From: Thelephora terrestris
Taxonomy: Eukaryota > Basidiomycota > Agaricomycetes > Thelephorales > Thelephoraceae
Length of the DNA: 64,000 nucleotides
NCBI GenBank assembly: GCA_015956445.1
Contig: WIUZ02000019.1
Span: 1-64,000 of the forward strand
Direction of reading: 5' to 3'
Each line of letters starts with the position of its first letter. The first letter of the stretch is position 1. Below are positions 1,501-23,839 of the stretch, piece by piece. The position numbers and the translations under genes are program-made. The notes beneath the pieces are model-generated. The model had not been told where the DNA came from, ran no database searches, and saw nothing but the letters and a program-made list of their open reading frames with translations.

Positions 1501-2109
1501 TGTGGTGAATTGATTTGTCAATTAGTCAATGATAAAAGTATGAAATCATTGTTACAAGCGAAGTGATAACTGGTTTTCAAGGGGTGCTCACCCAGCTCAC
1601 TGACAACGGGTACATTATCAGTGCAGCACGTTGGAAGAAAAGCCTACCATATTGGGTGGTCCATCCCGGGGCCAGTTTACCTGGCTTGCAGCGGTCGAGC
1701 ATGGCTTCCCCTCCCATAAATAGAATGAATTGGGCTTGATTGAGCCTTTTTCTGGTCCTTCCGCAGGCCTCGCGCCGCTGTTTCCGCCCCGCCAAATGTT
1801 GCAACCGTGCGAATTTCACCCTTCGACACTGATGGCGGTGGCACCTGACTTCGGTGCGCGCCAAACTGGCCCATTCGCTCGAACTGGACCTCCCTCCGCT
1901 ATTCTGATTGGGAAATCTCACTCCCTTCCGCCCCGATGGATATGGGGGGTTCGTGAATGCGACGTACCTGTGGGAACCCACTCTCCTCCTCCCATTGGCC
2001 CGCAATCAGCCGAATAATTGATCTGACCTGCCTCCCACCCTCCTTCGGGGTGCATTTATTCCCTCCCCCGGTCGTCGGCTGGCTTTCGGCCTGCACTCCT
2101 ACACCACGT

Positions 2110-3340
2110 GCCGTTCACAGCGCTCGTTGTGACCCCGCCCAGTGGGTTGGCCAATCACGATGTTGATCGATTAGGCATGATCATTCCTCATCTCTCCCCT
2201 CGTCCTCCCATTCCCTGCCCCCGATAGCCCCCGATAGCCATTTGACGACACGCCCCTGGCTCCACGTGGCTCCTCCCAGCTATGATCCTGGTCGGCCAAC
2301 CGCCCAGCGGGTTGGCCAATCACGACGTCGATCAATTAGGTATGATCATTCCCCATCTCTCCCCTCGTCCTCCCGTTCCCTGCCCCTGATAGCCGTTTGA
2401 CGACACGCCCCTGGCTCCATGTGGCTCCTCCCAGCTACGATCCTGGGGCTCGGCCAATCCCAACGCCGATCAGTCAAGTATTCTGATTTCCATTCTTGCC
2501 CTTGCTCTCCCGTTTGCTGCTGCTGCGCATCCCCGACGCGTCCCTCTTTGCGTACATTATATTTCCTTATTCATCCCATTGTTTTCCCGTCCCCAGCCAC
2601 CGTTGATAGCGTTCGGCAATGTGGCACCTCCAGCCACAGTTCCAACGATCCGGCAAATCCCGCCACCGAGCAATAAGGTACAGCGTTTCCCGATCCCGAC
2701 CTCACGTCCTTGGCTCGACGTTTCTCTGCCGAGCTACGGTTCTAGGGCTCGGCCAATCCCAACGCCAATCGGTCAAGTATCTTGGCTTCCATTCTTACCC
2801 TCGTTCTCCCGTTTCCCGCTGCTGCGCATCCTTTGACATGTCCCTCTTTGTGTGCATTAGATTTCCTCGTTCATCCCATTGGTTTCCCGCCCCCCGCCGC
2901 TGATAGTGTTTGGCGATGTGGCGCCTCCAGCCACAGCTCCAACGATCCAGCAAATCCCGACACCGAGCAATAAGGTAAAGCACTCTCCAAATCTAACGCT
3001 GCTACTGATATTCGATGACGCGTCCCCCGTTTCTTGCTCACGCCAGCCACAGTTTCTAGCCAACGCCAATCAATCTGGTACACGAATTTCTGTACCCCCG
3101 TTCCCCCGCTCCCTGCTGTTGAGAACCACACCCTGCCACATGGGTCGTCGCAGCCGCGTTTGCCAGCAAAGCGCTGTGCCAATTGATTTGGTTTGTTAAC
3201 TTCCCTCTTTCCCCACAGTTTCCGGCCAATCACAGCGCCGATTGATTAAGTCCACCCACCTTCCGTTTCTGCCCTCATCTCCCCTCCTCATGATGGCGCA
3301 CTGCCCTTTCGACATGGCTTACTTCAACCAATCCCGATGC
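2110..3340 (+). repeat. Degenerate tandem units with GGCCAATC core
   Basis: At least six degenerate units of about 140-310 bp each begin with a core close to GGCCAATCCCAACGCCGATC followed by a T/C-rich stretch. Cores lie near 2151, 2311, 2452, 2753, 3060 and 3228. GGCCAATC is a canonical CCAAT box, the site bound by the fungal HAP/CBF complex. The same array runs through the right arm (about 22230-23240, minus sense). Whether the units recruit CCAAT factors or serve as subterminal transposase sites is unknown. Confidence 0.75.
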
Positions 3341-3573
3341 AGAACAATTTGGCTTTTCCATTCCTCGTTCCTCTCCAGTTCTCCCATCCACCTGCACGTT
3401 TGCTGTCGGCTGCGCTTCTGATTGGCTGGTAGGTCACACCCGGAACCTCAAACCCCGACGGACTCATCAGCCACGATTCCCAGATACGGACCTACGGACT
3501 TCCGTCCCGGATGCTTCCCTCTCCATTTATCGGTTCTACGGTAACTTCCGATAAAGCCGCTTATCACGTCGAC

Positions 3574-3660
3574 ACTGATAAGGGCCGTTATCACTCTAAC
3601 ACTGATAAGGGCCGTTATCACTCTAACACTGATAAGGGCCGTTATCACTCTAACACTGAC
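3574..3660 (+). repeat. 27-bp GATAA/TTATC palindromic tandem repeat
   Basis: About three copies of ACTGATAAGGGCCGTTATCA plus CTCTAAC, each containing the inverted pair GATAA...TTATC. The right arm keeps one full copy (near 21870-21895), so copy number has changed since the arms separated. GATAA is also the core of fungal GATA-factor sites; binding is only a possibility. Confidence 0.8.
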
Positions 3661-3684
3661 AAACACTGCTTGTCACTCAGGTAC

Positions 3685-3745
3685 TGATAATAGAACATAA
3701 AAGAGTAGGCCCGCACGACACCTGCTCTTCTCTCCCCCATCATGG
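3685..3745 (+). promoter_or_regulatory. Inward-facing promoter-like segment in left arm
   Basis: A TATA-like ACATAAAAGAG lies about 45-55 bp upstream of an ATG in a good fungal start context (CATCATGG, 3742), separated by a pyrimidine-rich leader. The same arrangement is present in the right arm, facing inward on the minus strand (about 21840-21778). Function is inferred from motifs only. Confidence 0.35.
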
Positions 3746-4158
3746 ATCCTCCTCTCCTCCCTCATCCCGATGGTAGTGAGACGTGGTCAAACCCTCTGCC
3801 CCTATCGGTACAGCCGCCTCACAGGACCTTGACCCTCAAGCCACAGGAAATCATCATCTTTGCAGCGAGTACACCCCTCGACTCCAACCGCAGTCACGCC
3901 TCATCGGCCAGTCCCGAAGTCCCCGCTGCTTACACATTCCTCAAGTCCACTCCGGTGTGCACGCCCGCCACACCTGACAGTTCCTCAACGCTTCCCGGCG
4001 TAACACGCTCAATTTGCATATTTTATCCCGGCCTTGACTTTATCGCTTGTTCGGTGAGCACGATTCCCGCCGCTTCCGCTCGGCTACCCCGTAACCACTT
4101 CCAGATTAGGCCCCCGACTCCACGAGATTCCGTCCTCATAATATTCCCAGCATCTTAG
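3742..4158 (+). CDS. Small open frame at inner end of left arm (doubtful gene)
   Basis: A 138-codon frame starting MDPPLLPHPDGS. The first 87 or so codons are open and identical in the right arm (21780-21466, minus), after which the two copies differ in their tails. The protein is rich in Pro, Ser and Thr and shows no domain, signal or membrane segment. Conservation may simply reflect the recent duplication of the arms. It is listed because it is the only ATG-initiated frame sitting directly behind a promoter-like segment in both arms. Confidence 0.25.
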   Translation: MDPPLLPHPDGSETWSNPLPLSVQPPHRTLTLKPQEIIIFAASTPLDSNRSHASSASPEVPAAYTFLKSTPVCTPATPDSSSTLPGVTRSICIFYPGLDFIACSVSTIPAASARLPRNHFQIRPPTPRDSVLIIFPAS

Positions 4159-6210
4159 TGGACACTTTCTACCGGTTGATAATTGAAATTTCTTGCCGGT
4201 GTGTTCCCGGGACAACCACCGATTCTTCGCTGATATCAATTATCAGATCTTGGGATGCTCGCGTGAAAATTTCTACAATCGTTGCAGTGCCTCCTCAGAG
4301 GTGGCCATCCGCTAGTATCCCTGCCCCCAAGCCTTGTAAACTACGTGTTATCCTGCCGCAGTCGAAATCTGCGATCGTAATCTGATTCTACGAGAGCCGA
4401 GTTTTGTCATCAAATCCATTGATAATCGATTACTTCCTTCACGACTTGCTGATTTTGATGGCGGCTTCTCGTGCAGACCGCGTCGCAATGGATGTCGAAG
4501 GCTGAAGCGGTGACCACTTCCCAACCTCAACGCAGAGGTTTCATCCGTGTCGTTTGGAATGGCGTCAAACCAACCGTGTGATTCGTAAGCAGGATTACCA
4601 GCTTAGAGCTTCCAGGGGTGGACGTTCAATTTGGCACCCAATTAAATAAAAAAAGGGGTGTTTGTCATGAACAAACACGCACAAAGCTGATGGGGACACC
4701 TGGCCTAGAACATGCCCCGTCACAGCCTGTCACACACTATCTCCCCCAACGCCACCCACACCACCCTGCTGGATGGCGCCACCCACGACGACGATGCCTC
4801 CAAACAATCCAACACTGCACCATTTCCCCTCATGCCTTCATGCGTTTGACTGTATGCAAACCACCTACCAGCAGGCAGAGTCGGATCCAACATGGACGCC
4901 TGCCTACATCGCTCCGTGGTCTCTGTCCTTCCTGCAAGCGCAACACCCCAGGCTACCCATACCCCCTTTCCCATCCATCCTCAACATCACGCACCCTGGC
5001 AAGACCATGAACTCAGCCTCCACTGTACTTGTTGGTGGTACGCAAAATTCGAGCGTCCTCAGGTGTCGGCACAGTTCTTTGAACAGATTGTGAGTTAAAA
5101 CTCTCTCATTTCATCACCTTCCTCTGCTGGCCGGCTCACATGGTTTTACTGTATTGGTATGTCAGTCATCAAGGTCGTGGCACTTGGACAAGACTCACGC
5201 CGGGTCCCCTTGAGGTACGTAGCATTCTCGTCGTGTCATTTATTACTCTCTCGTCCGACGAACTTCAGATCTTTAGATCCACCCTCTTACGCTAGTCGCT
5301 CGTCATGTGCTGGCAGCTCATGCTGCTTCGTTAACTGTCTCGCTTGGCAGCACCGATCACTCGTCTGCAATAAGCAACACTTTACCCCTGCAATCTTCCC
5401 TCCTCCTCAAAAGGCCTGCTCACCCCGTCGATCCTGAGATCTATACCCCCTATACCATTGCCCCATTGTTCACACAGCATCCTGTTGGCGTCCCCTACTC
5501 CCCTACTTCTTATTCGCACAATCCACTTTCAACAAAGACTGAGCAGGTGGTTGCCGCCTTTTCAATTGGTCATTGATACAGTCGATCATTTTGCCTCACC
5601 TCCCAAATTAATGATGTCATTCCGTCTCAAATGTTTCGTCGTTCCGCTGACTTGACTCACGAAAATCTGTGACTTGCTCGTTCGTGACAAAATATACTTG
5701 CCTTCCCTTCGCCGTGCACAATTACTCCCTCTTTTCAAATTGTGCTTCAGTACCTCGGGTAGTGATCCCCAGGAAAACAGTGCACCTCAGCCGTACGATC
5801 CCACCGCGCGTCCATATTTAGGTAGAATTTCCACTGTGCGCCACTGTGGGAAGAAGAAGATCTACCTTCCGCTGAATTTATTTTTTTGAGATTCAAGAAA
5901 TATCTGATATATTTGGAGCGGAGTTCTCGAGACTGCCGCTGGTAAGGTGTGGTACATCTTATACTAAAAATTGATCATCGGTGCAACAAAATTATAGTCC
6001 GAAAGGAGGCAGTCGATTACACAAGGAAGGATGGCGCAAAGTTGGCGCAAAGAATGTCAAACACATGAAATCACGTGCAGCGAGAAGACAAGAAAGTTCG
6101 TGGTGAATTTGTATAGACGACGGCGGGAAGAGTTCAGGTCCAAAGAGAGAACACAAGAAATCTAAATGGTGTAAAAAAAAAAAAGGGGGGGACGGGTCGC
6201 CATGAGCTCC
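4159..6210. other. No gene recognised
   Basis: About 2 kb inside the left arm without a supportable gene. Open frames at 4618-5010 and 5159-5576 are short, overlap each other and lack recognisable motifs. The last 300 bp (about 5900-6200) are purine-rich and lead into the 3' end of the minus-strand WFNN/WW gene. A poly-A/poly-G tract lies at about 6173-6192. Confidence 0.4.
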
Positions 6211-9022
6211 TCAGGCTTTAGACCTTGTCCTCTTCAAGGTGGTGCCAGCTGCGGCCCTCTTCCGAGGCGTGTCTGGTTCTGCCTCGCGGTTTCTCTTGGC
6301 CCGACGGCTGGGAGTTGACATTCCTCGCTTTGGCACGTCACAGTCTTGAGCCTTTGCCATGACAAACGAGAGGTCGTCGACAACGCGCAACCACTCGGGA
6401 TCGTGGTCTGCAAGGTCATCGAAGTTGGGTGTAACTCCAGCACCCACTGCCTCGATGCGACGGGCTTTCTCGCCTTCTAAATACCGTGCATGCGCACGGT
6501 CCCACCAAGAGAGGCACATGAGAACCAAGAACAGACCCTTAGACCCACCAGAGAGGACGTAGGACCACGCAGATGAGCCTCGGGGCGGATCCTGTCCGGA
6601 GCGACGCCACTCTGGCTGGATCTTGCCCCACCAACTGACCACCTCAGTGCCAAATCCAGGGACCACGACAGTGTCACCTCGCGATGGCCTATGGGCGTAC
6701 TGAAAATATTCGCTGATCTTGGGTGGTCGGTCCTCGTTCGTGAGTGTGACTCCCTGCAAATGGCTCAGAGCTGAGAAGGGAATACTTGAATGGGATTACA
6801 TACCATGTCCATGAATTCAAGCCGTCGCTCTTGTCGCATATAAGCCTTCAGTAAGTTCTCCCATGGATGCCCACCCGCAGTGGAAGCAATGTACTTCCAC
6901 TGACCGTGTTTGACCATCCAGGCCGGAAGGTCACCCTCATCGACATCCATATCAGAGCAAGTGTGAGTAGGAGGAGGCTGGGAATGGTTGGCGACGGTAG
7001 GGTCTGAAGATGGGGGTGGGAGCTCCTTGCATCTGTCAGCGGTTTCTTGGGAAGATGGCACCTGGGTTCCAGCCTCGCTGTCATCGTTCAGGCTGACGAA
7101 ACTATTCACGTCGATGAACTGGCGTAAATCCACAGACACCTCTAGGTCATCGTCGCCGAATACATCTTGCACTTGGGGAGGTGGAAAGAGGCCAGAAATC
7201 CTCTCTGGCGCATCACTCATTGAGCCTCGACGAGAATGAGTCCCAGCGGTTGTTCTTGCTGAATTCCGGACCCGGTAGGAGACCTTTGGCACGACGGCAT
7301 TACCAAGCGACTGAGAAGGGATCGTTGCAGGAGCTAAATGCAGCTGTGCGTCCATGGTGGTTTCCTCAGGGGGGGGATGGGAAGATACGGAGGCAGGTTG
7401 CAAAGGCTCAACAAGAACTTGAGAGGGTTCAGTGCCGAGTTGCGACGGACTGACAGCTGGTTGGGACGGTTTGACGCTGGGTTGGGACGTACTGACAGCT
7501 GGTTGGAATGGTTCGACACCGCCAGGGCCTGTGGAGGTGGGCGAAGAAGGTGCTGCAGACAGATCCGGTGCACTTGTGATTTGAAAGGTAGAAATTCCGG
7601 GGCGCAACGGAATGCCAGCCGTTGATGCCCCAGACGTTGATTCATGAGATGCGGGCAATAGAGAGGATGCGTTCTGAGGTTCTTGAGATGCCGCCAGTCC
7701 TGAGGTCGATTTACGAAGTGCTGCAAGCCGCAACGCCGATTGTTTAGATGAGGCAGCCCGAGTGGAGGAATTGTGTGATGAAGTAGACTGAGCGGGCAAG
7801 GGAATCTCTGGCTCCGGCTCGTTGCGTGAAAGCTCTTCAGAAGGCTGTTCTTCCAATCGGGCGGCGGTTTCTGGAGAGAGAAGGAACTGGTTTCGTTGCT
7901 TACTTCCCTTCGCTTTAACGGGATAAGCCAGAGGTTCACGCAAGTCACGAGGGAAAGATCATTTACCTCCGAAGACCCGAAGAGCCCACTCGTTGAACCT
8001 TCTCTCCACACACTCGTCCCAATCGTCTCCGTAGAAGGTTTCGAAGTCGAGCTTCCCTACCGACCTCCCTTGACAGAACCTTGATCAAGGAGTGTTAGGA
8101 TGGGGCACGGATGATGAAAGATTACACGTGCTTTTGGACCTGAAGTTTTCCATCCTGGGGGGAAAGTGAAGCGACGAAAACCTGGGCAATGCAACCAGTC
8201 TGGTCCTCCAAGTTTGTAAGGACACGAAGCAGTGATTTTGCGACCAGAGGCTGGTTCCTAGATGGCCGAAGGCGTCAACTCTAATTAACCATATCTAAGG
8301 GTTAGTGTACTTCTCGTGAATCTTGAGCTTCGCTTTCCGCTCTCCGTCGTCAGGGATCTCAGTGATTTTGCAGTATAACTTCTGTCTATCTTCCTCCCGG
8401 CGAACATCAATCGCTTTTTTCTCCGTGCTAGAGAGGTCGACGAAGAGCTCCTTTGCGATCTTGAGCTTGAATGCAAGGGGTATGCGATCTACTGCAGAAG
8501 AACCCTCGGCGTCGGAAGGTGGGTCTTCATCGTCTGCAAAGGTGACAACCGTTTTCTCCCTTTCCCAACGAGCAAGGACAATGGGCTCAAGGGTGGACTT
8601 CCAAGCATAAGAACAGTACGCCTGGACAGGCGCGAGCTTCCTCTTCTCATTGACGTCGAGTTTCAGATTGCTGCGTCCTGCTTTCGCCGATTCAGCACCA
8701 CGACCACAGTTGTTGAACCAGGATTTTATTTGCTGGACAAGGAGCAGATAAGTATGGCGTCACGCAACAAGATAAAACGACCACACACCGTATTCTTTTC
8801 TTGCTGCATCATCATACGCGCAGCTTCCGGGGACCCATGTTTCCTGGTCATGGCGATGGAGGGAACGATTGGCCACTGATGATACCATTCCTCGAAGACC
8901 TTCGGCCAGAAACGATCGAGGGTCTTCTCGTCTTGGCAGCGCCTAAACCTGGCCTCTTGAGTGAGCAAAAATTCGAGCTGTACACCAGACTTCCAATCAA
9001 AGCGGGTGGCCTTGGGGGGCAT
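6211..9022 (-). CDS. WFNN/WW-motif protein, transposon-associated Agaricomycete family
   Basis: Six exons join in phase to 772 aa: 9022-8789, 8732-8311, 8257-8126, 8079-7967, 7912-6804 and 6753-6211. The introns are 46-56 nt with GT-AG ends. Residues 1-180 carry a homeodomain-like helix with WFNN at about 83-86. Residues about 190-275 are a second globular part (QTGC, then FETFYGDDW). Residues about 280-530 are Ser/Pro/Gln-rich and look disordered. Residues about 540-700 carry a tryptophan-rich block ending in SWWGKIQPEWR (632-642) and a CLSWW motif. The C-terminus is basic and nuclear-signal-like. From memory this is an expanded Agaricomycete family of unknown function, often seen beside transposons; the WFNN helix suggests DNA binding. 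It lies within the inverted arms and may be cargo or an accessory gene of the KDZ element. I see no break. Confidence 0.75.
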
Positions 9023-10596
9023 GTCGAGTGAAGAGAAGCAAGACAAAAATGGATCGTGGCTGAGTGAAAAAATGAGCGAGGCTGAGGAACTTTGAAGTGG
9101 CAAGGGACAAACAATTCGACTGATAACTGTCGGCTTATAAGTTCTGCCCTTCCCCGGTCACTGCTTGAGCGCTTATGGTCAAACTCACCCACTGCCACCG
9201 ATTGTGAGGGCAGAATTTCAAGTAGTTTGTCGACCAAGTCGACAACACTCAGCCTGTTGTCACCCCATTGCAATTTGCGGCATCAAATCATCGGATTTTG
9301 AAACGCCTATGATGGGGAATGCATATCATGGAAAGTTACCTCCCAACTCGCTCGAACCGCTCTAGTCGGCAATGCAAAAAACAGGTGAGGCTTTCCAATC
9401 GCATTACCGCTTCGGCGTCGCGAGAGGTCATGAAAACGGGATAGTAGATCACTGAACTTGCAGTGGCAAGTTTGCCCTTTGTGATTGGGGGAGCCAACCC
9501 TCCAAACGGAACAACGAATATTCTGGTCCCCGCCACACCGCAGATCCATTCTTCACGGATCAAACTACATCTCCGACGAATCGTCCGGAGTCAGAGACCG
9601 AACCAAAGTTAGTACAACAGCTGTCAAAATAAGGTCAGTCCGCTGGCTGCCTCCGAAAGAGCCAACGTTCATCAATACGGCAAGAACATCCATTGATGCC
9701 GCCCTGTTTCAGAAGTATGTCTGAGATCGGAATGTCAGCTGCCCAAGCGAGGTGGCTCGTCGTCTGCCTCTGAAAGAGAAGGTATACAGGAATGGACAAG
9801 CGGATTGACTTGCTCGGTGACAAACATAGAAAATGTTACTCTTTTTGAGTACAAGACAGCCCGACAGAAGTTGTTTGAGATCCGTCATCGCATGTTGGCC
9901 CTTTCAGAGCCTGGCAACAAGCTTCCCGACCTCACCCCAACGACTGATTTACCAGTCTGGGCTTATCTCCGACACCAAATGTTTCATCAGAAGCCCTTCT
10001 TTGTCCAAGGTTGACGACACGCGGTGTTGCCCCCTCAGCGACGGACGGTGAACTTCCCTACGAGATCCAAAGAATTTAGACAATCATTAATCAAGTGTCG
10101 GGCTCAATCAAAACAAAGAGAGTGCTTTACCTCTTGGGCTTATGGGAAGTGATACGGATCTGATCGGGGGTTAGCTCGTCGAGCACCCAACATAGTGGTC
10201 ATTCGAGGTGTGTCCTGTCCTGTCATCGGTGCCAGCAGGGCAGAGAGTCATTACATTACTGCGTGGAACAACCATACCCCTGTCCATGGGTTTGGGACAC
10301 ATGGTCGTGGCTCTAGGCGGAACCTGACAAGAAGCGACTTCAGGATTACCAACTGATAAATCGATGATTGATGAGCGGTGAGCGGTGAGCAGAACCGAGA
10401 AAGGTGCAGATCACTGGTCGCCGCTGTCACGTGAGAAGAAAGGCAAAGCTGTCGATCACAAGACCCCAGCCGGTGTTTTTGGCGGGATATAACTGCCCCG
10501 GCCTACACCAAGACTCCTCCCTGTTGCCCACCGTGTTCTCTTTCCAGTCTGTGTGCTACTCTCAGCTTCTGCCATCTCCGCCACAGCCCGCGCAAT
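9023..10596. other. Upstream region of the WFNN/WW gene, no clear gene
   Basis: This holds the 5' region of the minus-strand WFNN/WW gene. Two weak overlapping minus frames (9563-9307 and 9823-9635) and one plus frame (9805-10014) have no family match that I recognise, and no splice model joins them convincingly. The small direct repeat GAGCGGTGAGCGGTGAGC occurs near 10374-10391. Confidence 0.35.
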
Positions 10597-11431
10597 ATGA
10601 CCTTCACTCCAGACGACATTTTCTCCATCGCTTCCTCCACCGCCGTCGGCATGGGGGAAAATCTTGTCACGACGTTGAACACAATCATCATGAACCTTCC
10701 TGAGGCTGACCTTCGCAAGGTGCGCGATGCGGTAAATCGCTCACTGCAGCTCGCAGATGACCTGCTTCACCACTTCCCAATCTCACCCGCCTTCGAATTT
10801 GTTTCTACGAGCGATGGTGGGCTGATCCAACTTCGCTTTTTCGTTCACGTTTATATCCCCCTAGTCACAGAGTTAACCACCCCTGGCAAGGAAACTTCCG
10901 CCTCCCCCGGTACCGCTTCAGATCACAGTCCCTTCAAAGCCAATGATGACTCCGTAGGTTCTCTATCTATACCTACTACCCAATACGCTATTCACCTTCA
11001 GCTAGCAAATGCGTGTCCCACCACCGTCTCCTGCTTCTCTGGCGCCAAGTGAAAGCTTCGTCTACAGCTCCCCCGTTTTCGGGAACATTGAACTCCCCTG
11101 GCTCAAGAGCACTCGCGACCGTGGTGGGGTCCCGGTCTTAAGCACCTCTGCCCAGCCCCACATTCAGAAAGAGGAGCATGAGAGTCTGTTGACCACCTCT
11201 CCTCGTCTCCATGATGACATTCCCGGTCACAGTCTCCACCCCGAAATCCTTGATATCGGTCTGTTGGTTCTGTTTACAAATCATCCACCTTGGAGTAACC
11301 CTCGTTTTACAGGCGCCTCGGGGCCATACTGTTACTTCGCCCATGAGTTCCCCTCACCCCAAAACTGCTGCGTATCATGTGGCCGCATATGGATCTTAGG
11401 TCTTCCCCTCGCAGATCCAACGCGCGTATAG
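10597..11431 (+). CDS. Hypothetical protein, two-exon model
   Basis: A frame starting MTFTPDDIFSIASSTAVG at 10597 can be joined across an intron (about 10954-11005, GTAGGT...CTAG) to a downstream frame that ends at 11431. The product would be about 260 aa. The N-terminal 90 residues look helical and amphipathic; the rest is Ser/Pro-rich with no recognised domain. The join is chosen because it restores a protein-like frame (SPVFGNIELPWLKS). The alternative is that only the first exon is coding and ends at 11052. It may be cargo of the surrounding element or a relic. Confidence 0.35.
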
Positions 11432-12226
11432 GTTCCATGTCCTCCGTGGGTCGCAGGGGTCTCTGGGAGTATTGATCACAAACGTAGGAGTTTGTTCAGA
11501 CGGTCAATCTGTACGACTCCTTTCTTGCCGTAAATGCTCGTGAGGTGGTTTCTTGTGTGCTCGCAGAATACTTTGGTTTGCCAATTGTGTACATCTTATC
11601 TAATGCTGTCCCTCCACGTTGAGGCCTCATAAATTTACTACCCACCATCCTTGCCACTAGGCATATCTTTACATGTATGTTATCCACCGATGTTGAGGCA
11701 AGTGCTTCCAGATCTAGGTGTCATTGGGGCCTTTGCGCTTGGTTGGCTCTGCAGCCCGTTTGTCTTCCCCTGTTTAAGCAGAATCCGAGGCACAGCTGCA
11801 CCGCCCAACTCGTAATCATGTCTGTCGTTCAGAATTACCTCCTAGTCTCAGATCATTATACACCTTGTCTTCCCTATGTAGTGTAATTCGACATTCAATC
11901 ACAGTTCCCAGAGCGTCGCAAAACACGATTGATACGTTATTGTCCAGAGATTTACCTGCAACATACCCATGGAATCAACTTAGCACTCTCGCAGGCTACA
12001 GTTGCCGTAGGTCTCTGAGCTTCGCTTCTTCCAGTATTCAAAGCAGCACTGGCTCAGGTCAACACCTCACTTATGAACCGGAATTCCTTGCGTTCCGCAG
12101 TGACCTTAACATTTTGTGCCTTCCTCATTTCCATAAGTATTACAATAGTTTTCGGATTTACAGCCTGAGGTCATTGAACGATGTAAAAAACGATACACAT
12201 ACAGATAAATTTGATTCACCAATGTG

Positions 12227-12500
12227 TGATTGCATGCATCGGCTACATCAAATGAGATACTCCCAGGACATATCAGCCATTTGGAGGCCGTTCAAAATTG
12301 AGATGTGTCCTAACGCGTAAAATCTACTATACCCCGAAAAGTATCGTGTGGATGTGCCTCATGGCAGATTATTTTGGACGTCCAAGGAATGTCTTATCGG
12401 AGGCTATGTGGTGGTTTTAATTTGACGATATATGATTATATGATTACATGTATTAACTACATCGGAACAAAAGAGATACTCCCAAAACATAGCAGCCATT
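12227..12500 (+). repeat. Degenerate ~65-bp direct repeat
   Basis: Two copies about 210 bp apart share the pattern TGATTRCATG...CTACATC...AGATACTCCCA..ACAT...CAGCCATT (about 12227-12285 and 12438-12500). They differ at roughly one position in six, so the duplication is old. No coding meaning is apparent. Confidence 0.6.
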
Positions 12501-12703
12501 CGGGGATAGTTCGAGAGGGCCCTGGTAGGTTACTACACTTCAAGGAGGGTTGTTTGGGCGTACACAGAGAACTGACATCAATGCACAAAGGGGGCCTTAT
12601 AAAATGATAACCCAGCGATTGTGTCGGACATCCTAGGATATCCGATGGGTGCAATGGGAGTCCTTAGACCATCAGGCAACTCTGGATACCTATGTAGCTT
12701 ACC

Positions 12704-12758
12704 CCACATGTAGAGAGACAGACGTCCACATGTATAGAGACAGACGTCCACATGTAAT
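12704..12758 (+). repeat. 22-bp tandem repeat
   Basis: Two and a half copies of CCACATGTAGAGAGACAGACGT, with one A/T difference in the second copy. Confidence 0.8.
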
Positions 12759-13424
12759 CGAGCTATGTTGTGTGGCAGTGTACCTCAAATGTGCAAACGC
12801 CGCAAGCTGATTGCACCTTAATTGCCAGTGCCTGAACGTCAGACTTTGGCTTCCGCTTACGCCACTGGTTGTACCCCAGGTTACTCCCCTAAATGAACTG
12901 AATCCAGACCTTTGGCCAACTGTAGCAAAATTTGGAATTTGCCGCATGTGCATAAAATGCTGGTGTCTTGGGTCATAGTATTGATAAGCAAACATCCGGC
13001 TTAGAATTACAGCACGTAGGTGGTATACATACACGCAGGCATCCGGGTTGAATGGATAATGCTAAGCAGTCCTCAAAGCCTCTAGGGGTGCATTCACGAA
13101 CAACTCCCAGCAGTGAGAATGCTGTGTGTCGAAAGACACAACGAGTCTCTTATCTTTCGCTCAAATTGTGCCTACTTGACATCGCAATTCAATCACTGAA
13201 GTGCTCACTCTTAGTAGACCTATATGATACATTGTAGAATTTACGCAGGGTAAATTAACGGTACTCATGTCATCCACCTGTGTTCTGAGTCGAATGGAAC
13301 TGGAGTCACATTAAAAGTGGGCCTCAGGGTAGATAAGCAAGACAAAAAATGGCAAGATGACCTAAGCCCTGGGAAACCGCTTCGATCATGCTTAAGACGA
13401 CACGTCACACTCCTCGCCTCCACT

Positions 13425-16400
13425 ATGTCTAAGCGTACCTCAACAGGTCACCAGCTGTCTCGGAAAAAGAGGAAGGGAGGGGTAAGTTACGCGATGATAG
13501 ACGTCGACTCTCTGGACGAACGACCACCCGAGGAAGACATATGTGTCTGGAGCGTGACTAGGTCCGAAGTCAGTGGGTGTGTTTCCGCCTCGCGAAAGAA
13601 CCACCAACACCTTTGCATGGACGCTCCGGAACGTTTGTGCGAAGGAAATCTCCCTACTGCCATCCCGGAGGACCTTGGTGTCTTTGCCGAACCGGAGCAG
13701 AGCGACCATCCGGCCGAGCCTGTTGTAAAGCGCACGAGGGAAAAAGCTCTCAAAGAAAACGATAGCGTCAGTCCCACACTAAAATTGTTTATCATGCTGG
13801 TACTCACGTGCCGACAGACAAGGATGGCGGATTGGCTCCATTACCGTTCAATCATGTTAGACGAGCTACTCCGCATGGATGGCACAGGCGATTCAGCAAC
13901 CCCAGAGGACTGTGTAAACTGCGGGAGTGCGGGAGAATATAGATGCAGTGACTGCTTCGGAGGTAACATGTGTTGTTTGAAATGCATCGTGTCGCTGCAC
14001 TGTCACCTTCCACTACATAGAGTTCAGGTATGTCCCGTGTCACTGAAACATACTGCACTGGATAAATGTCCACTCTAGGTCTGGTTGGACGGGTTTTTCA
14101 AACGGGTGACACTCGAGAGTCTCGGCCTGATTGTTAGTCTAGGACATTCTGGGCATTGCTGCCCTATTCTCACCGAAACTCATCGGATACTCGTTGTTGA
14201 CCTTTCCGGGTATCACACTGTCCGCATCCGTTACTGCAAATGTTCTGGAAATGGATACCTCGAAAACTTTCGACAGTTCCTGCGTGTCGGATGGTATCCT
14301 GCCTCGGTCCTCCATCCCAGAACTGTCTTCACGTTCGACCTTTTGGACACGTACCACAAGATATCCCTTCAAGGAAAGCTAAACCTCTACGACTTCTATA
14401 ATGCCATTATGCAGAAGACAGATAATCACGGGAGCTTGAAAGTGAAGGTAAGTCGTCGCTGCAACCCGTTATTACCAGCAACTGATGCACACAAAACAGT
14501 ACCGCTATCACGAGATGTCGCGATGTGTGCGACAATGGCGTCACCTCAAGGATCTTAAACGAGGTGCAGCCGGCCACACGACCACCACGGTTGACAAATT
14601 GGATAGTGGGATCCTTGCTGTTGAATGCCCCGCTTGTCCCTGTCCAGGACGAAACCTACCTGCAGGGTGGGATAGCCCCAGCAGTCACGCGTAAGATTTT
14701 AAAGCCACTGCGCTAGTCGGCCCTAAAACAACTATGTGCAGATGGCTCTATTGCCTGTTCCTGGCTATTGATGCGAACTTCCGGTTGAAATTGAAGGCGC
14801 GAGGTATAAACGATCCGGAGCTTGGGGCAGGTCTCGCATATTTTGTGGATACCACCAGGTTTCAAGGACACCTCAAAAGTCATACTGATGAGGAAGATGT
14901 GAGTCGAACATGTTTCCCCAACTTGAGGGTTATCGATCAATCGTTGTTGAACGTTGATGATTTGATAGATCGAGACTTGCGGCACCGAGTTCCACGCAGT
15001 TAACCAAGCAAACTCAAGGTTATTGAAGGACTTCTCAGTATCCGGTGTTGGCGCGATTGTCTGCCGTCATGGCCTGGTTCGTAAAAACGGTGTAGTTGAC
15101 CTTCAGAAAGGCGAGCGGTAGGTCGCGTGCTTGGCCAACCACCATAAACACGTGCTGACTCGTTTAGGTTCGTGAACATGGACTTCATCTTCCTCTCCAC
15201 CGTGAAAGATGAGGAGGTCAAAATGATCAAGATCTCTTACGACATTGCTTGTCGTTGGTCGGTTAACTTATTTCGGAGGATTGAGAGCTACTCTCCAGAG
15301 CTTCGCATCTCTGAAGATAAATTCGCTTTGGAATATTTTATTCCCAAGTTCCACCTGCCTGCCCACGGGTCCAGCTGCCACACGAAATATTCATTCAACT
15401 ATCGACCTGGTGTGGGGCGGACCCATGGAGAGAATATCGAGAGTGGTTGGGCTCACACAAATCCAGCCGCGGTTGCAACTCGGGAAATGGGTGCCGGCGC
15501 CCGACACTCAGCACTTGATAGTCACTGGGGGGGATGGAACTGGCGAAAGATTGTTGGTTTCGGTATGGAGTGGCAGTGTTGGTCGTCTGCAGTTCTATTT
15601 TTAACACATTTTCCAGGAACACTCTTACTGAAGAATCTCCACGACGCACGGAAGATGGCCAAGCAGTGCGAGAAGATCTGCAGTGACTTCGAAGTGCAGA
15701 CTGACCCAGGGACAGTCAAGGAATGGCGGGCAATGAAGCACGGTTGGGAACGCGATCCTTCGAAGCCTGACCCATTCAAGTTGGTTGAAAGACGTAGGTG
15801 CTATTGACTGAGTCCTTTTTGAACGACCCCTAAACACATCCTCCCATTGTCAGCTGCAAGCCTCGATGCCGCAAAGAAGAAGCTTGCTGAAACTGAAGCC
15901 CTTGAAGCAAGAACGGGTAGTTCTCTGCCACATAAGCTACTCCCGTCTTCATTCGTTCGCATGGGGCTTGAGATTGAGGACCACCAGTGAGTATCCTAAC
16001 CCGCATTCCACGACGGCACACTCACCAAATCTAATGTAGGCAACAAATCATTGCACACTTACGCACAAATCGCCAACGCACAGACCCACAGAAAATCGAG
16101 ACCCAGCAACGAAGGAACGCCCTTGCAAGATGGATCAAGGTCTGGAGGATAGCTCAGGTCGTTTACATGCCGCAGGCCCTCGCATATCTCCCCGATGAAA
16201 GTGGCTCGCCCGCTTCCAATGACGCTGAAAGACTCAATGACTCAAAACCCGAAACTTGGGCGCTTTTCCTTCCCTCTGCCATCCCAGAGGACGACCGTTC
16301 GCTGTGTTACAAGTGGATCGTAGAGACAGAACGAACTCTTCGCTTGGCGCAGTTGCAAGACAGTTTGGCGGACCTCAGGCAATTTAGGCGAACCCTTCGC

Positions 16401-17339
16401 AACCTTCGATTATACTTCAAGACTAATACAGCCGGGGAAGGTCAAAAGACTCAGACGAAGTCGAGGACCATCGAAGCAGGAGTCAACAACCGAATCAACC
16501 GAGCCGTGTGCAGGTACCGCATCGCGTACCGTGCGCTTCTTGAGTTGGACCCGGCCGGAGACTGGACAGATGAATACTACGAGCTAAGAGACGAGGACAA
16601 TAGGGGTCCACTGAAGGAGCTTGAGGAGAGAGGCACGGGTGATGGGAGATATGCCCCGTCCTGGATATGGGCGGTTCCCTCACTAACATCTCTAGGCAAA
16701 GGATCTGTGGCCGAACAGGGAGAAGTCGACGAGACCGTTCATCACAAATGGATGACCTGTAGGGCGAGGGCAGATCGTTGGCTAGAAGAAGAGGAGCTGC
16801 TGAGAGAGGAGATGCGTCGAGTCCTTGTCTACCTAGGGTGGAAATCCCGTGCATGGTCTGATAAAGTTGGGGCCCGCACAGGTTCCTGTTCCCCTGACGT
16901 TCAAAACGGCCTCAACGCATATGCTCGCAAGCAGGCAAATATCCACCGCGAGCTTGCAATTTCTTTCGCCGGCCAGTGGCTCCCCTACCTCAACGCTTGC
17001 AGCCTGGATACAAAGTGGGCTGCTGAGTTTCCGTGGCTCCCCCCTCCCCTTTCTCGCCAAAAAGGTCTTCCAAAACGATTTTCCACTGCCCCAGCCGATG
17101 CTCCCATAGCTTCGTCCTCCAGTGCCCGAGGACCGGAAGTGGCGGAGGGGTATGAGGCTTCCTCACAGGCACGAAGCAACAGGGGTGGCCCCGACGACGA
17201 AGCGCAAGATTCTGACGGCAATGAGGAAGATTCTGATGACGAAGGCGCGGGGGTGAGTCACGAGGATGGAAGCCCCGGTGGTGATGTCTTGTCCAGTGAC
17301 GAGCTCGGCTTTGAATACGATGACGAATACATGTCTTGA
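13425..17339 (+). CDS. KDZ-type transposase with CxC2-like cysteine cluster
   Basis: Nine exons join in phase to 1157 aa: 13425-14027, 14079-14447, 14500-14690, 14742-14898, 14969-15117, 15168-15562, 15617-15793, 15854-15986 and 16040-17339. All introns are GT-AG, 50-70 nt. Residues 163-201 form the cysteine cluster (CVNCGSAGEYRC..DC and following Cys/His) that precedes KDZ cores in fungi. The core carries AIDANFRL (Asp398), ISYDIACRW (Asp515) and GENIESGWAHTNP (Glu581). I propose these as the DDE-type catalytic triad by position in the family. HWGGWNWRK and a long helical C-terminal part follow, then an acidic Ser-rich tail. KDZ proteins move large DNA transposons and have expanded in mushroom genomes. 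No break is visible. The ATG follows a plausible leader; an upstream in-frame GTG is less likely. Confidence 0.9.
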
Positions 17340-18864
17340 AGAGGCGTTGAGATCTTTGTTGAGCGTAGGGCGTGTATACAGAATAGAGAGATTTTCGCAC
17401 AATTTGATGGGGCATTTACGGGGTCAGTCATATGATTTAAATATCTTGTCGTGAAAGCGCGTTGAAGAGAAGTTGGAGGGGGGCAGTCAATTGTGGAGCA
17501 GGAAAAACGATATAAGGAGCAGGCAATTACAGGCTAGGGGCATGTACGAGACTTATGATACGACATGGTGACCATGTCAAAAGTGGGGAGAAGAGATGGG
17601 TGATGCTAAGATACCTTGACGGTGTTCCGACGACAACACAAGGGGTAAGTGGAATTTGGATAATGCAGTCGGCTGACGACGGGACAGGCCAATGTGTTGT
17701 AGGAAACCGTGTAAGGAAATAAAAGCGAACGGCAACACCTATGCTGTGGAGAAGTGCAAAAAATGCTGTCAACGCGACGGGTGACCGTTGAAGTCGTGGA
17801 GAATGAAAGTGGGAATCAATGCCATGAGAGCTGGGAAAGACGGCGATAGACTGAACGGGAGTGGATTGCGGAAATAAAATCCTAGATGTGTGGCTGTGGT
17901 GCTATTGGGAATTTGGAAACATACAGGGGAGCGCAATGTTGAGACGTCCCAACCGGTGGGTACAAAATACCTGGGAAACCATTGGAGCGTTTGACTCAAG
18001 GCAAAGGGGACAACAGTGACCGTGATGGGCAGTCGGCAAGTGAAAATGCGATCGTTTCCAGGGTTTTGCAGGAAGGGATGGCTGGTGGGAGTGGAGTACG
18101 GACATGAAGGGAATGTTTCCTGGAATCCCCTGACAAGGGTGAAGTGGGGTGGCGCACAGCGGACGTGCAAGAGAAGGTGCGTTAGAGGAAGCACTGAGAA
18201 ATATGTGGAATTTCACTTGCCAGCCACGGGTGTCCAAAACTGCGGAAACGGAGAGTCGATCTCGAGGAGCAGCTAGTACAATAGCAATGAGTGTCCCCAA
18301 CTGCTCGAAGGAAGACTTGAATGGAGGGTGGGATGTTGTGGGAGCGGGCAGATCGTGGTGCGTGCGTTCCTCGCGGTGGATGGGGTATTGGGTGTCCGAG
18401 TTTGGGCAGGCGTGCGAAACCCAGTTACCCAAACCAAACAAATCTCAATTGGTTTATGTTGCTTTCACTTGTCACGTGAGCGCCTATGCTTAATGGCCCT
18501 CACTGACTGAACTTGTGATTTCAGTTGATACCTACTGGAAATCGCCCTGGTGGTGATCCTGCGCCTCATATTCAATGATGTCTCAGATTGAAAATCTCCA
18601 AATTCCTCACGTCTTTTTGGATTACCATTATGAAAAAATTCAACCTTATTGCGTCATGATTTGATTTTGATGCATAATTAAATTTTGATTGGTGGTCCGA
18701 CTTCTTCGATTGTACTTAATTAATCCACATGGGATTCTTCGCAACTGTAAAACTAAGCACTGGAGTGAACATCCAAGGATACCGGGTACTCTGCCGCCTG
18801 CGAGTCTCTAGGTTCTCCACATTCTCATTCAACCTACTCCCACCTCTATTTCTTACAGTCTTGG
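17340..18864. other. No clear gene
   Basis: This is 3' flank of the KDZ gene followed by spacer. A 179-codon minus frame (18441-17902) overlaps another minus frame (18194-17769), is rich in His, Pro and Ser and has no recognisable motif; I do not call it a gene. The stretch about 18590-18730 is AT-rich. Confidence 0.4.
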
Positions 18865-19240
18865 CGGGGAGGGTTTGAATCACAAGTTATCGCCTGTGGT
18901 CTTGGCGGTGGAACATTTGATGTCCACCTTCTCCCCATCAATGATGGTGTCTTCGAGAGCACCAACATTAGACTGTACTGGCGCAACCAATTCGGCGGTC
19001 ATCGGACATTTTTCTAGCCAAACTGAATTGATTACACAGGTTTTGATGTCGGGTTGGTCATGTTAAGACAGTAAACCCATTGTCACGAGAAGAGGTCTAG
19101 CGCTAACGTTTCTAGGAACCTCGAGACTATCGGAAAGTTGAAGAGGGAAGTCGAGAAGACCAAGAGTGACTGTCGGACAGCCAGCATTGAGATTGAACCG
19201 TCCAATGGTGGAAACGGCATTTCCTCCTCGGCTCCAGCTA
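18865..19240 (+). pseudogene. Hsp70 gene fossil (fragments)
   Basis: Translation near 18889 reads LGGGTFDVHLLPINDGVFES, matching the phosphate-binding loop of Hsp70/BiP (family: DLGGGTFDVSLL). About 230 bp further on, near 19125, a different frame reads LKREVEKTKSDCRTASIEIE, matching the later Hsp70 segment KLKREVERAKRTLSS...IEIES. The pieces are in the right order. The frame between them is interrupted by stops and shifts, and the rest of the gene (about 550 residues) is missing. I read it as a captured or retro-inserted host Hsp70 relic inside the candidate KDZ element. Confidence 0.75.
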
Positions 19241-19598
19241 CCGATCCCGACACAAAAGAGCGGGCTGGCACCGAAAATTTCAATGGGGGAGCCTCTTCCC
19301 ATTTGCACTTTTGCACCACATGGTGCGTGTCCCCGATTGAATCCATCATGCATCAGCGCTGACGTCTACACTAGAATCCATGTGTAGAAGGAGCTAACAA
19401 AGCTATCTGAGGGTGACCGACACTCGGTGCCCAGCAGCACCGGTTCTCAGTCAGCGCCGATCTTCCCTCATTCCCTCCTTTCTGGTGAAAGGCGTGTGAA
19501 GTCAGACTCTTAAGATCGAATTCATTAGTAGCAATAGATATAACAAGAAATATATTCGGCGTGGCAAATAAATCGTTCGAACAAACAAATCACGGACG
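19241..19598. other. Spacer, nothing recognised
   Basis: This lies between the Hsp70 relic and the 3' end of the minus-strand cysteine-rich gene. It is AT-rich near 19510-19590, fitting a 3' flank. No other signal is seen. Confidence 0.4.
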
Positions 19599-20644
19599 CT
19601 AGTCCGAGTCTTCTATCTCAATTATGCAGGTATGACCACCAGCCCTAGAGGTTTCGCTGCAAACAATCCTGCCGCAGCCTTCGCACACGCGAAACACCTT
19701 GAAGAATTGTTGCGGGAGGGCACCATACTTACCGAAGAGGTTTGAGGTGGTGACAGCGAGCCCTGCGGACGGACGATCGTCCAATTGTATGTGGGGGGGC
19801 TGTGACGGGACACTGGCAGGGATCGCACGATTTGCACGATTTCCATTGGCACGATTCGCTCGCAGATTACGCTTTGGTTTCTTCGCCGGGGCCTCGGTCG
19901 CGGTATCTAGAAGTCAGTGTCCTAGGATCAGCGTACTTGCACCAAAGTAGCTAACCTGTTCGAGTGTACTGACCGTCATCCGATGGAACTGGGTGGTTTC
20001 CAGTGACAGCTGTGTTCTCGACGGCTAAAACATCATCCTTGTATCGGTTCATTAATTCACTGATATTCACTATGTTGGGGTTCAGGGACTTGAAAACATC
20101 GACGCGGCGGCTGTTCTCACCGAAGTAGGGGCACTGCAGGTTGGGGCAAACCATACACATCATTCCAGTTGATGTAAAGTCCCTCAGGGTCGGGACGACG
20201 AGCCTAGCCTGGTGGGAAGGACCACGGACCGCACAAAAACAGGACGGGAGTTCCCAACGGTTCGTCTTGACGAACTCCGGGAGCTGTAGTGGTTCAACCG
20301 GATTCCCTTTGTCGTCCCGGGGACTGGTTCATGCTTCAGAAAACAAATGATTGCAAGAAAGCCTAAACAGCTTACTAAGGAATAGGATGAAGGATGCCTT
20401 CCGAGATTTCGGCATCCCACTTGAAGGATACGAGGGTCGTCATGAGCTTCAAACGTGTTAAAAGCTCCCGAAAGATGCGATCGAATTGAGAAGGCTCATG
20501 GGAAGCGGCTTCAGTTGTGAGGAGGGGGCTTTGAATGCGCATATGGTCGTGGCGGCGCTTTTGAGAGGGAGTGGGAGTTGCGGGGGAAGGGCGGTTCGAG
20601 AGGACCGGGTGAGCCTCCGTGGCAGGGGAGCCCGCAGAATCCAT
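19599..20644 (-). CDS. Cysteine-rich putative zinc-binding protein
   Basis: Three exons join in phase to 308 aa: 20644-20376, 20323-19974 and 19906-19599. Introns are 52 and 67 nt with GT-AG ends. The N-terminal 70 residues are Ser/Pro-rich. The middle has a Cys-rich block (CFCAVRGPSHQARL, then MCMVCPNLQCPYFGEN), a basic stretch with repeated RAN motifs (KKPKRNLRANRANGNRANRA) follows, and the C-terminus ends in VCEGCGRIVC...HTC, a second zinc-ligand set. I know no named family. It sits between the KDZ gene and the right arm on the opposite strand, and could be element cargo that binds DNA or RNA. The 5' end of the first exon is set by the only early ATG. Confidence 0.65.
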
Positions 20645-21401
20645 TTTTGTGGTATGGGGCGTGGAAGGGCGTAGAGAGTGAGGGAGGGTGAGGGAGGGTG
20701 AGAGGCAGCTTGGTTGATGATGACCTGCACTCCACTTATATTATTTAAACTAGGCAACGGCGAAATGCCTGAAAAGGAATGAACAAGTTCAGAAGCAATA
20801 GATCTGCGGCAATCCTGGAGAGTACGACCGGATGAATAATCTCAGAGATTTACATCATAGATGGATGGTCCTGATGGGTCGATGGCGACAAGTCTCAGAT
20901 GAGACATGACTGGGGCAGAAAGGGGGAAGTCCAGTCCTCAATGGGTCCAAAGAACGACGTGGATGATCCGGCATCAGACAACGCGTACCGGGGTGAGGTC
21001 TGGTGCAGTGGAGGGCAGGGAATGGCTAATTATTGATTACTGGATATCCACAGAAATGATGAATGCGCGTCTGGTGCGCAATCCAACCAGAGAGCAACTA
21101 ATTTAGTAGGCGGGTCAAGAAAACACGAGAACACCCAGGAAGGAAATTTTGAACCTCCGGATCAGAGATGCATCGGTAAGTTGGGAACAAGGCCAGAGTG
21201 GCGTATTGCAATAAAAATACCACAGGTGACACCAACGACCGGCTTGCTGGAAGGACGATGTTCTCATTTAGCGGGTTATTAGTGGGAGGGATGGACTGTG
21301 CTCACCGATGGATTGATTAGCTTCTGGGGGACAGGATCACCAGCGCCGAGCAATAGGAGCGCCAATCACAAGTGTTGCTAAGGTACGCGTCATTGCGAAG
21401 T
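20645..21401. other. Spacer before right arm, no gene
   Basis: This is 5' flank of the cysteine-rich gene, with a GAGGGTGAGG tandem near 20684-20702, then sequence without coding character up to the right arm. Nothing else is recognised. Confidence 0.4.
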
Positions 21402-23839
21402 GAAGTCAGGGACCTAATCCGGAAGTCGTTACGGGGTAGCTGAGCGGAAGCGGCGGGAATCGTGCTCACCGAACGAGTGATAAAGCCAGGGCCGGGATAA
21501 AATATGCAATCGAGCGTTTTACACCGGGAAGCGTTGAGGAACTGTCAGGTGTGGCGGGCGTGCACACCGGAGTGGACTTGAGGAATGTGTAAGCAGCGGG
21601 GACTTCGGGACTGGCCGATGAGGCGTGACTGCGGTTGGAGTCGAGGGGTGTACTCGCTGCAAAGATGATGATTTCCTGTGGCTTGAGGGTCAAGGTCCTG
21701 TGAGGCGGCTGTACCGATAGGGGCAGAGGGTTTGACCACGTCTCACTACCATCGGGATGAGGGAGGAGAGGAGGATCCATGATGGGGGAGAGAAGAGCAG
21801 GTGTCGTGCGGGCCTACTCTTTTATGTTCTATTATCAGTACCTGAGTGACAAGCAGTGTTTGTCAGTGTTAGAGTGATAACGGCCCTTATCAGTGTCGAC
21901 GTGATAAGCGGCTTTATCGGAAGTTACCGTAGAACCGATAAATGGAGAGGGAAGCATCCGGGACGGAAGTCCGTAGGTCCGTATCTGGGAATCGTGGCTG
22001 ATGAGTCCGTCGGGGTTTGAGGTTCCGGGTGTGACCTACCAGCCAATCAGAAGCGCAGCCGACAGCAAACGCGCAGGTGGATGGGAGGACCAGAGAGGGA
22101 CGAGGAATGGAAAAGCCAAATTGTTCTGCGTCGGGATTGGTTGAAGCAAGCCATGTCGAAAGGGCAGTGCGCCATCACGATGAGGGAAGATGAGGGCAGA
22201 AACAGAAGGTGGGTGGACTTAATCAATCGGCGCTGCGATTGGCCGGAAACTGTGGGGTAGGGTGAGTCACGTGGAATGCAAGATGCATCGTCACCGGTTG
22301 ACAATGGCAGGGAATAGGAAGGTGAGGGAAAGAGGGAAGTTAACATACCAAATCAATTGGCACAGCGCTTTGCCAGCAAACGCGGCTGCGACGACCCATG
22401 CGGCAGGGCGTGGCTCTCAACAGCAGGGAACGGGGGAACACAGGTGCAGAAATTTGTGTACCAGATTGATTGGCGTTGGCTAGAAACTGTGGCTGGCGTG
22501 AGCAAGAAACGGGGGACGCGTCATCAAATATCAGTAGCAGCGTTAGATTTGGAGAATGCTTTACCTGATTGCTCATGTCGAGGGTAAGAATGGAAACCAA
22601 GATACTTGACCAATTGGCGTTGGGATTGGCCGAGCCCTAGAACCGTAGCTCGGCAGAGCAACATTGAGCCAGGGACATGAGGTCGGGATCGGGAAACACT
22701 GTAGCTTATTGCTTGGTGGCGGGATTTGCCGGATCGTTGGAACTGTGGCTGGAGGCGCCACATTGCCGAACGCTATCAACGGTAGCTGGGGACGGGAAAA
22801 CAATGGGATGAATAAGGAAATATAATGTACGCGAAGAGGGACGCATCGGGGATGCGCAGCAGCAGCAAATGGGAGAGCAAGGGCAAGAATGGAAATCAGA
22901 ATACTTGACCGATCGGCGTTGGGATTGGCCGAGCCCCAGGATCGTAGCTGGGAGGAGCCACATGGAGCCAGGGGCGTGTCGTCAAACGGCTATCGGGGGC
23001 AGGGAACGGGAGGACGAGGGGAGAGATGGGGAATGATCATACCTAATTGATCGACGTCGTGATTGGCCAACCCGCTGGGCGGTTGGCCGACCAGGATCAT
23101 AGCTGGGAGGAGCCACGTGGAGCCAGGGGCGTGTCGTCAAATGGCTATCGGGGGCTATCGGGGGCAGGGAATGGGAGGACGAGGGGAGAGATGAGGAATG
23201 ATCATGCCTAATTGATCAACATCGTGATTGGCCAACCCACTGGGCGGGGTCACAACGAGCGCTGTGAACGGCACGTGGTGTAGGAGTGCAGGCCGAAAGC
23301 CAGCCGACGACCGGGGGAGGGAATAAATGCACCCCGAAGGAGGGTGGGAGGCAGGTCAGATCAATTATTCGGCTGATTGCGGGCCAATGGGAGGAGGAGA
23401 GTGGGTTCCCACAGGTACGTTGCATTCACAAACCCCCCATATCCATCGGGGCGGAAGGGAGTGAGATTTCCCAATCAGAATAGCGGAGGGAGGTCCAGTT
23501 CGAGCGAATGGGCCAGTTTGGCGCGCACCGAAGTCAGGTGCCACCGCCATCAGTGTCGAAGGGTGAAATTCGCACGGTTGCAACATTTGGCGGGGCGGAA
23601 ACAGCGGCGCGAGGCCTGCGGAAGGACCAGAAAAAGGCTCAATCAAGCCCAATTCATTCTATTTATGGGAGGGGAAGCCATGCTCGACCGCTGCAAGCCA
23701 GGTAAACTGGCCCCGGGATGGACCACCCAATATGGTAGGCTTTCCTTCCAACGTGCTGCACTGATAATTTACCCGTTGTCAGTGAGCTGGGTGAGCACCC
23801 CTTGAAAACCAGTCATCACTTCGCTTGTAACAATGATTT
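21402..23839 (-). repeat. Right inverted arm
   Basis: Reverse-complement copy of 1543-4120. It includes the inward-facing promoter-like segment and 104-codon frame (21780-21466), one GATAA repeat copy and the CCAAT units. It has lost about 170 bp of one CCAAT unit (around 22580) and gained about 80 bp (around 22255-22335) relative to the left arm. Substitutions are few (about 1-3 per cent in the stretches I compared), so the arms are young or kept alike by gene conversion. Confidence 0.9.

Follow-up and report, generated by a model that had tools for sequence, protein, structure and literature searches.

The window studied here is a 64,000-nucleotide stretch of Thelephora terrestris DNA (GenBank assembly GCA_015956445.1, contig WIUZ02000019.1, positions 1 to 64,000 of the forward strand). 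It is the start of contig C11; C4, C7, C16, C37, C58 and similar labels denote contigs of the same 40.6-Mb genome, and W denotes the element in the window. W spans 1497-23886 (22,390 bp), as defined by conserved tips and a flanking 7-bp duplication, and holds a KDZ transposase gene and further coding regions between two kilobase-scale inverted arms. It is very probably a giant cut-and-paste KDZ transposon, complete and perhaps still functional, whose arms would be ancestral to its group and maintained by gene conversion that spares the tips. An earlier sequence-only reading had proposed a 22-kb KDZ transposon here. This is borne out by paralogous empty sites, a 7-bp target-site duplication (TSD) and a sister element of which two copies, arms and genes included, are 99.7% identical.

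Ends, arms and genes of the element

The two copies of TTTCCGT that flank W lie at 1490-1496 (left) and 23887-23893 (right), identical in all 7 bp and assigned to neither strand. Inside them are a left tip of the CAGCTGTGGT type (1497-1542, plus strand; TGATAA at position 34) and a right tip of the CACTACTGGT type (23840-23886, minus strand; TGATAA at position 35). The 10-bp left tip recurs at one end of the elements on C37, C16, C58 and C7. The limits first proposed, 1543-23839, miss a non-identical tip of 46-47 bp on each side. Outside the element, window 1-1509 is a repeat with further copies on C7, C8, C10 and C11 (there at 768 kb) and fragments on C4; it terminates in an array of 21-bp units, which resumes at about 23887 with its orientation unchanged. 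The flanks were joined (1001-1496 plus 23894-24120, one TSD omitted, junction at 496) and compared with the array paralogues. In three out of five, the match was gapless across the junction at 98% identity (C7, 620 bp; C8, 536 bp; C10, 578 bp). Since the joined flanks match paralogous arrays uninterrupted, W is a 22,390-bp insertion in the 21-bp tandem array. As the target is such an array, the TTTCCGT duplication alone is weak evidence, and the boundary is fixed by the tip conserved in other elements. For the same reason a boundary at 1509, where the first array matches end, was dropped. An 8-bp TSD, TTTCCGTC, is possible in W owing to the array; 7 bp was preferred after the C7 and C16/C58 elements. 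The 1-1509 repeat was also found at the start of C7, and some of its copies lie within 15-40 kb of contig ends, the C8 copy not being one of them.

The arms, located by repeat search and alignment, occupy 1543-4123 (left, plus strand, ~2.6 kb) and 21400-23839 (right, minus strand, ~2.4 kb). They pair as inverted segments 1530-2803/22579-23852 (98%), 2965-3213/22326-22574 (94%), 3211-3608/21860-22257 (97%), 3604-4014/21508-21918 (97%) and 4014-4123/21400-21509 (91%). When the arms were aligned end to end (1543-4123 with 21400-23839), 2303 of the 2369 compared positions were the same (97.2%), with 283 gap columns; mismatches per 100 bp ranged from 0 to 8, and one identical run was 548 long. The inverted arms are therefore real and lie where the sequence-only reading had placed them, though they are not 2.5 kb each. 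They are also part of the transposon, as had been supposed, but strictly they are subterminal repeats, the extreme tips being short and unlike. A 27-bp tandem repeat with TTATCA/TGATAA motifs is present within the left arm (3556-3659, plus strand). Both arms contain an open frame with MDPPLLPHPDG (3709-4155, plus strand; 21469-21813, minus strand) in a near-identical arm stretch, and the left-arm frame had no match in Pfam.

The arm search of the genome scored best candidates only, and among these no further copy of arm 1543-4043 was present beyond W. A pattern of the outer arm, allowing up to three mismatches, gave four matches, all in the W or C37 element. Arms without a KDZ gene, which would speak against a transposon, were looked for genome-wide by both routes and not seen. 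With two copies only in the best-candidate search, the possibility that the arms are ordinary dispersed repeats was ruled out.

The KDZ transposase gene, with a CxC2 cysteine cluster, lies at 13425-17339 on the plus strand; its start is approximate (first ATG of a conserved block) and there is no stop in the conserved blocks. Eight coding blocks (13797-17336) can be joined by seven GT-AG introns without a stop, as tested pairwise. Of the nine exons claimed earlier for this gene, at least eight are supported. The Pfam family KDZ (PF18758) matches at 15148-15804 (E 8.8e-36) and 14695-15000 (E 3.4e-6), and CxC2 matches ahead of the KDZ domain at 14079-14555 (E 1.1e-34). Between W and C37, nonsynonymous divergence (dN) is 0.17 and synonymous divergence (dS) 1.88, a dN/dS of ~0.09 over 790 codons; against C16, C58 and C7, dN is ~0.27 and dS is saturated. 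Five KDZ blocks compared across the copies showed no stops in the matched stretches, block coverage being partial in some copies. Judged by these ratios, the KDZ/CxC2 transposase is under purifying selection. A KDZ exon compared with solved structures gave no match. When 20 open reading frames (ORFs) were compared with Pfam, the only transposase-associated families were KDZ and CxC1-3, and no P-type transposase was present. The TET/JBP profile PF12851 gave no match and was equally silent in control genomes. The C16 transposase (near C16:255000-256400) aligns to that of W over less of two blocks, and with lower identity in one, than the C58 copy does; because the alignment is poorer despite 99.7% DNA likeness to C58, the C16 gene may be damaged or mis-sequenced.

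The two further genes expected between the arms were recovered as coding regions G1 and G2, both conserved with the C37 relative. Accessory gene G1 (6214-9022, minus strand) has several exons, with no Pfam family in the exons scanned. Matches to its central exon numbered 24 in the genome (own included), and 22 of them lie within 13 kb of a KDZ match, a zone that makes up at most 4% of the genome; G1 is on this account a standing partner of KDZ. The matches with no KDZ within 13 kb are at C12:1476990 and C13:510079. Coding block G2 (10518-10818, plus strand) has 49% protein identity to C37 and belongs to no known family. Region X (19537-20680, no strand assigned) has a conserved counterpart in C16 (59%), and short parts of it are conserved in C1, C59 and C45. 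It lies beyond KDZ in W and beyond G1 in C16, by position also in C1 and C59. Its four minus-strand ORFs scanned had no family match, a zinc-finger (GRF-like) impression was not supported by Pfam, and no fold or family was found for G1 or X. Region X was also considered as a remnant of formerly longer arms; its orientation in C16 does not fit. An HSP70-like stretch at 18769-19014 (Pfam E 2.8e-4; 19.7 bits against a cut-off of 20.6) is perhaps a captured gene fragment.

These features bear on whether W is a dead relic, intact in looks only. In a search with the W interior, the other matches in the genome were all diverged (87% at most), so that W is a single copy among the matches listed; the HSP70-like fragment could reflect decay as well as capture, and the gene model is a pairwise joining of at least eight exons. 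Yet the conserved KDZ blocks carry no stops, dN/dS against C37 is ~0.09, and tips and TSD are intact. A relic is accordingly doubtful, and we retain a complete and possibly functional W. As for the recent or current activity suggested earlier, recent mobility is indicated for the sister family and not for single-copy W.

Relatives with end-specific tips and self-matching arms

In the genome, PF18758 gave 125 exon-level matches, which group into ~58 loci. Four further KDZ copies (C37, C16, C58 and C7) were taken whole, having been picked as near relatives with G1 adjacent; with W, the five copies make up four families, W, C37, C16/C58 and C7. The nearest relative of the W interior is the 20,954-bp element on C37, whose arms run for 1,400 identical positions, then differ by 9-11 mismatches per 100 and then drop further. 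A 0.5-kb sequence lies inside one C37 arm (C37:11724-12224) and again just outside the element (C37:10384-10885), 93.6% alike. C16:248978-268688 and C58:1382535-1402230 are one 19.7-kb element at two loci, 99.69% alike including the arms; outside it, the fetched stretches have one 301-bp repeat in common (matches over 150 bp). The C7 element (C7:684061-730647; 46,587 bp) has TGATTAT on both sides, a perfect 7-bp duplication. Its arms of 12-17 kb are made of tandem units of ~565-623 bp; their outer 4.8 kb are 80% alike in one BLAST match, and a second alignment gave 3653 of 3958 positions with 1,239 gap columns. Across the group, elements measure 20-47 kb and arms ~1.4 to 17 kb, and tandem repeats are present within the arms of C7, C16 and W.

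The ends of the five copies were compared. In 10 of 10 ends the first 10 bases follow the end type, one end reading CAGCTGTGGT and the opposite one CACTA[AC]TGGT, and all five copies have CA..TG termini. Beyond ~10 loosely matching bp the tips are not inverted repeats, and the kilobase-scale arms begin ~46 bp inside. Across the first 45 aligned positions, identity is 58-80% for same-type ends of different families, 49-62% for opposite-type ends and 51-67% for the two ends within a single element. Past position 50, within the outer 600 bp, the contrast is sharp: arms within an element are 91-99% alike, and between families 44-59%. In W and C37 this within-element likeness sets in ~46 bp from the end; by eye, it does so at ~85 bp in C16 and ~130 bp in C7. 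In a tree of positions 131-600, the two ends pair in W (100/100), C37 (100/99) and C7 (100/100), and the four C16/C58 ends group together (99/96). The end-type label required 5 changes on this tree, and none of 500 shuffles required more.

Arms that group by element, next to tips that group by end, argue for arms evolving in concert, and homologous arms at both ends in all four families indicate that the common ancestor probably had arms. Each lineage has since probably homogenised its own arm pair. Arm identity is moreover patchy, and in none of the four elements tested did any of 2000 shuffles come out as uneven (in C16 the unevenness comes largely from poorly aligning inner sequence); gene conversion tracts leave this pattern. 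Concerted evolution by gene conversion halting short of the tips is the most likely explanation.

Homogenisation could instead belong to the transposition cycle, with repair after excision copying one arm from the other and no conversion in the resting element. In C37 and C16 the arms match best in their outer part and less well further in, as if synthesis began at the ends. Such synthesis should however copy the tips, whereas the first 10 bases are end-specific in all 10 ends, and the low-identity patches in mid-arm of W, between stretches of high identity, fit internal conversion tracts better. We consider copying during transposition possible but the less favoured source of the likeness, and conversion between resident arms is preferred.

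The shared plan also bears on a chance arrangement, in which an unrelated segmental inverted duplication, or two smaller elements, came to enclose a KDZ gene. The arms of C7, C16 and W do hold easily duplicating tandem repeats, and published KDZ elements of the Kyakuja type are said to have no terminal inverted repeats (TIRs) (as described in PMC12730594). But a single unit, both arms included, is common to C16 and C58, plan and tips recur in four families, and neither the best-candidate search nor the outer-arm pattern found solo arms. A chance enclosure is thus highly improbable, and the arms are taken to belong to the transposon.

The motif TGATAA occurs in the outer 600 bp 2-3 times per end in W and C37 (0.1-0.3 expected), once per end in C16, and 2 and 0 times in C7. 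The interior is also above expectation (13 against 6.3 in C37; 13 against 6.7 in C7), and TGATAA is for that reason only a candidate binding motif.

Swapped flanks and an inverted transposase gene

The C16 copy is flanked by GAATGAT on the left and CCTGCTG on the right, and C58 by the reverse. When C16-left was joined to C58-right, a 3.3-kb repeat known from the window was rebuilt (607 bp, 94.6%, 3 gap positions); when C16-left was joined to C16-right, the match halted at the junction. C16 and C58 have traded flanks, either in the cell by reciprocal translocation or in the assembly. Two copies 99.69% identical over 19.7 kb are a classic site of mis-joining, and an assembly error is somewhat the more probable origin of the swapped duplications; the flank pairing and the rebuilt repeat would equally be left by a real reciprocal exchange. 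The 3.3-kb repeat is a high-copy sequence (window 34792-38096; parts at 24118-24349 and 26669-27100, inverted, 8-11 kb off), with at least 14 near-full matches elsewhere at 93-97% (23 of 969 candidates scored).

In W, C37 and C7, transcription of the KDZ gene runs to the CACTA end; in C16/C58 it runs the opposite way, to the CAGCTG end. Reversal of the gene relative to the tips is the outcome expected of a crossover between the arms.

Proposed mechanism and comparison with known systems

A working model may be put together from these patterns. The transposase would recognise two end-specific tips, perhaps with nearby TGATAA motifs, cut at CA/TG and join with a 7-bp stagger. The kilobase-scale arms, ancestral to the group, would be kept near-identical in each pair by repeated gene conversion that ends before the tips. 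Arm pairing might occasionally be resolved as a crossover, which would invert the interior, and exchange between element copies would swap flanks.

Several observations weigh against W as a conversion-maintained transposon. Past base 10 the tips carry little signal, same-end and opposite-end identities overlapping; the deeper forks of the arm tree drew a long-branch warning from the program. Gene conversion is read from patterns, and a repair process that re-copied one arm would leave similar ones. Arms were looked at in only 5 of the ~58 KDZ loci, chosen for kinship or adjoining G1. Among the empty sites, the C11 paralogue (right) matches the joined flanks in two pieces, neither crossing the junction, the C4 paralogue crosses it only with gaps (85-93%), and the C8 match extends just 40 bp past it. 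The TSD of W has some ambiguity from its place in a tandem array, the 7-bp flanks of C37 differ (GGAAGAA against CTTGTGG), and W is a single copy, which leaves its own recent movement conjectural.

Long inverted repeats are commonly held to be unstable, and TIR length to be incidental. The paper on Galileo of Drosophila likewise treats TIR length as incidental (in the portion of PMC3573991 consulted). We tentatively suggest that the arms could be a working part: conversion may keep them alike so that the ends of a 20-47 kb element pair, the transposase would demand two unlike tips, and conversion would be halted ~45-130 bp from the ends, leaving the interior free to flip (polar ends, invertible cargo). 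In one genome, the arms of four families have diverged almost beyond alignment between families, and yet paired arms are matched and tips distinct. Two questions become testable: why conversion halts ahead of the tips, through selection that keeps the ends unlike or through lost homology, and by what means the two ends of a giant DNA transposon meet. Through this group, giant KDZ elements may also be connected with chromosome rearrangement.

Kyakuja elements of Agaricomycetes were reportedly dealt with by Iyer et al. in 2014. Laccaria families of Kyakuja have 7-bp TSDs, 5'-CA..TG-3' termini and no TIRs (Kojima 2025, PMC12730594, in the portion consulted, where families were picked for carrying a TET/JBP gene). 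The KDZ transposase and the CA..TG termini of all five copies are shared with them, as is the 7-bp TSD, which matches in W and C7 and, after the swap, in C16/C58, but not in C37. By its ends W is of the Kyakuja type. The kilobase-scale inverted arms are unlike Kyakuja as described there, and the no-TIR trait would fit the tips only. An 8-bp TSD as in Zisupton is a possible reading in W only, whereas C7 and C16/C58 (after the swap) have 7 bp. The Cryptococcus elements KDZ1-KDZ3 (PMC12810828, portion consulted) are likewise mobile KDZ elements in a basidiomycete, with 9-11 kb, TIRs of 139-241 bp, CxC1 and a TSD that measures 8 bp in KDZ1 and 4-8 bp in KDZ2 and KDZ3, in place of the 20-47 kb, kilobase-scale arms, CxC2 and 7 bp seen here. 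Giant KDZ elements are known from Ectocarpus, where they reach 30.3 kb, and from Chlamydomonas (31.7 kb, cited in the same paper), and are similar in size and extra genes; the C7 element is larger at 46.6 kb, and long arms are not mentioned in the portion of PMC12477816 consulted. Marasmius oreades also has mushroom KDZ elements, next to Plavaka; a TIR motif is said there to be characterised in a supplementary figure, and long arms are possible, the motif being known by mention only (PMC8290104, portion consulted).

Among long-armed transposons, Galileo (P superfamily; TIRs up to ~1.26 kb, the longest in copies with no transposase gene; PMC3573991) and Foldback-type Tetris of Drosophila (PMC4079207) resemble the present elements, in the portions consulted, in having long TIRs that contain tandem repeats; unlike in Foldback and Galileo, no P-type transposase is among the ORFs scanned here. 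Long-armed Galileo copies with non-matching 7-bp flanks, ascribed to recombination or assembly, are a precedent for C37 (same paper). By its title, an insertion-sequence paper deals with inversion via terminal inverted repeats (PMC3004938). Four other papers mention Kyakuja or KDZ and, in the portions consulted, no arms (PMC8226300, PMC10828217, PMC7473861, PMC12510652). At the level of titles and early abstracts, with supplements and subscription papers outside, no description of kilobase-scale arms in KDZ elements was found. Apart from transposons, the palindromes of mammalian Y chromosomes have arms kept alike by gene conversion; they share conversion-matched inverted arms with the element here but are immobile, with neither tips nor TSDs. 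Giant KDZ elements and long-armed transposons are known, and their combination here would be new. Also new are the exact ends, the plan common to the four families examined, and the end-specific tips set against self-matching arms.

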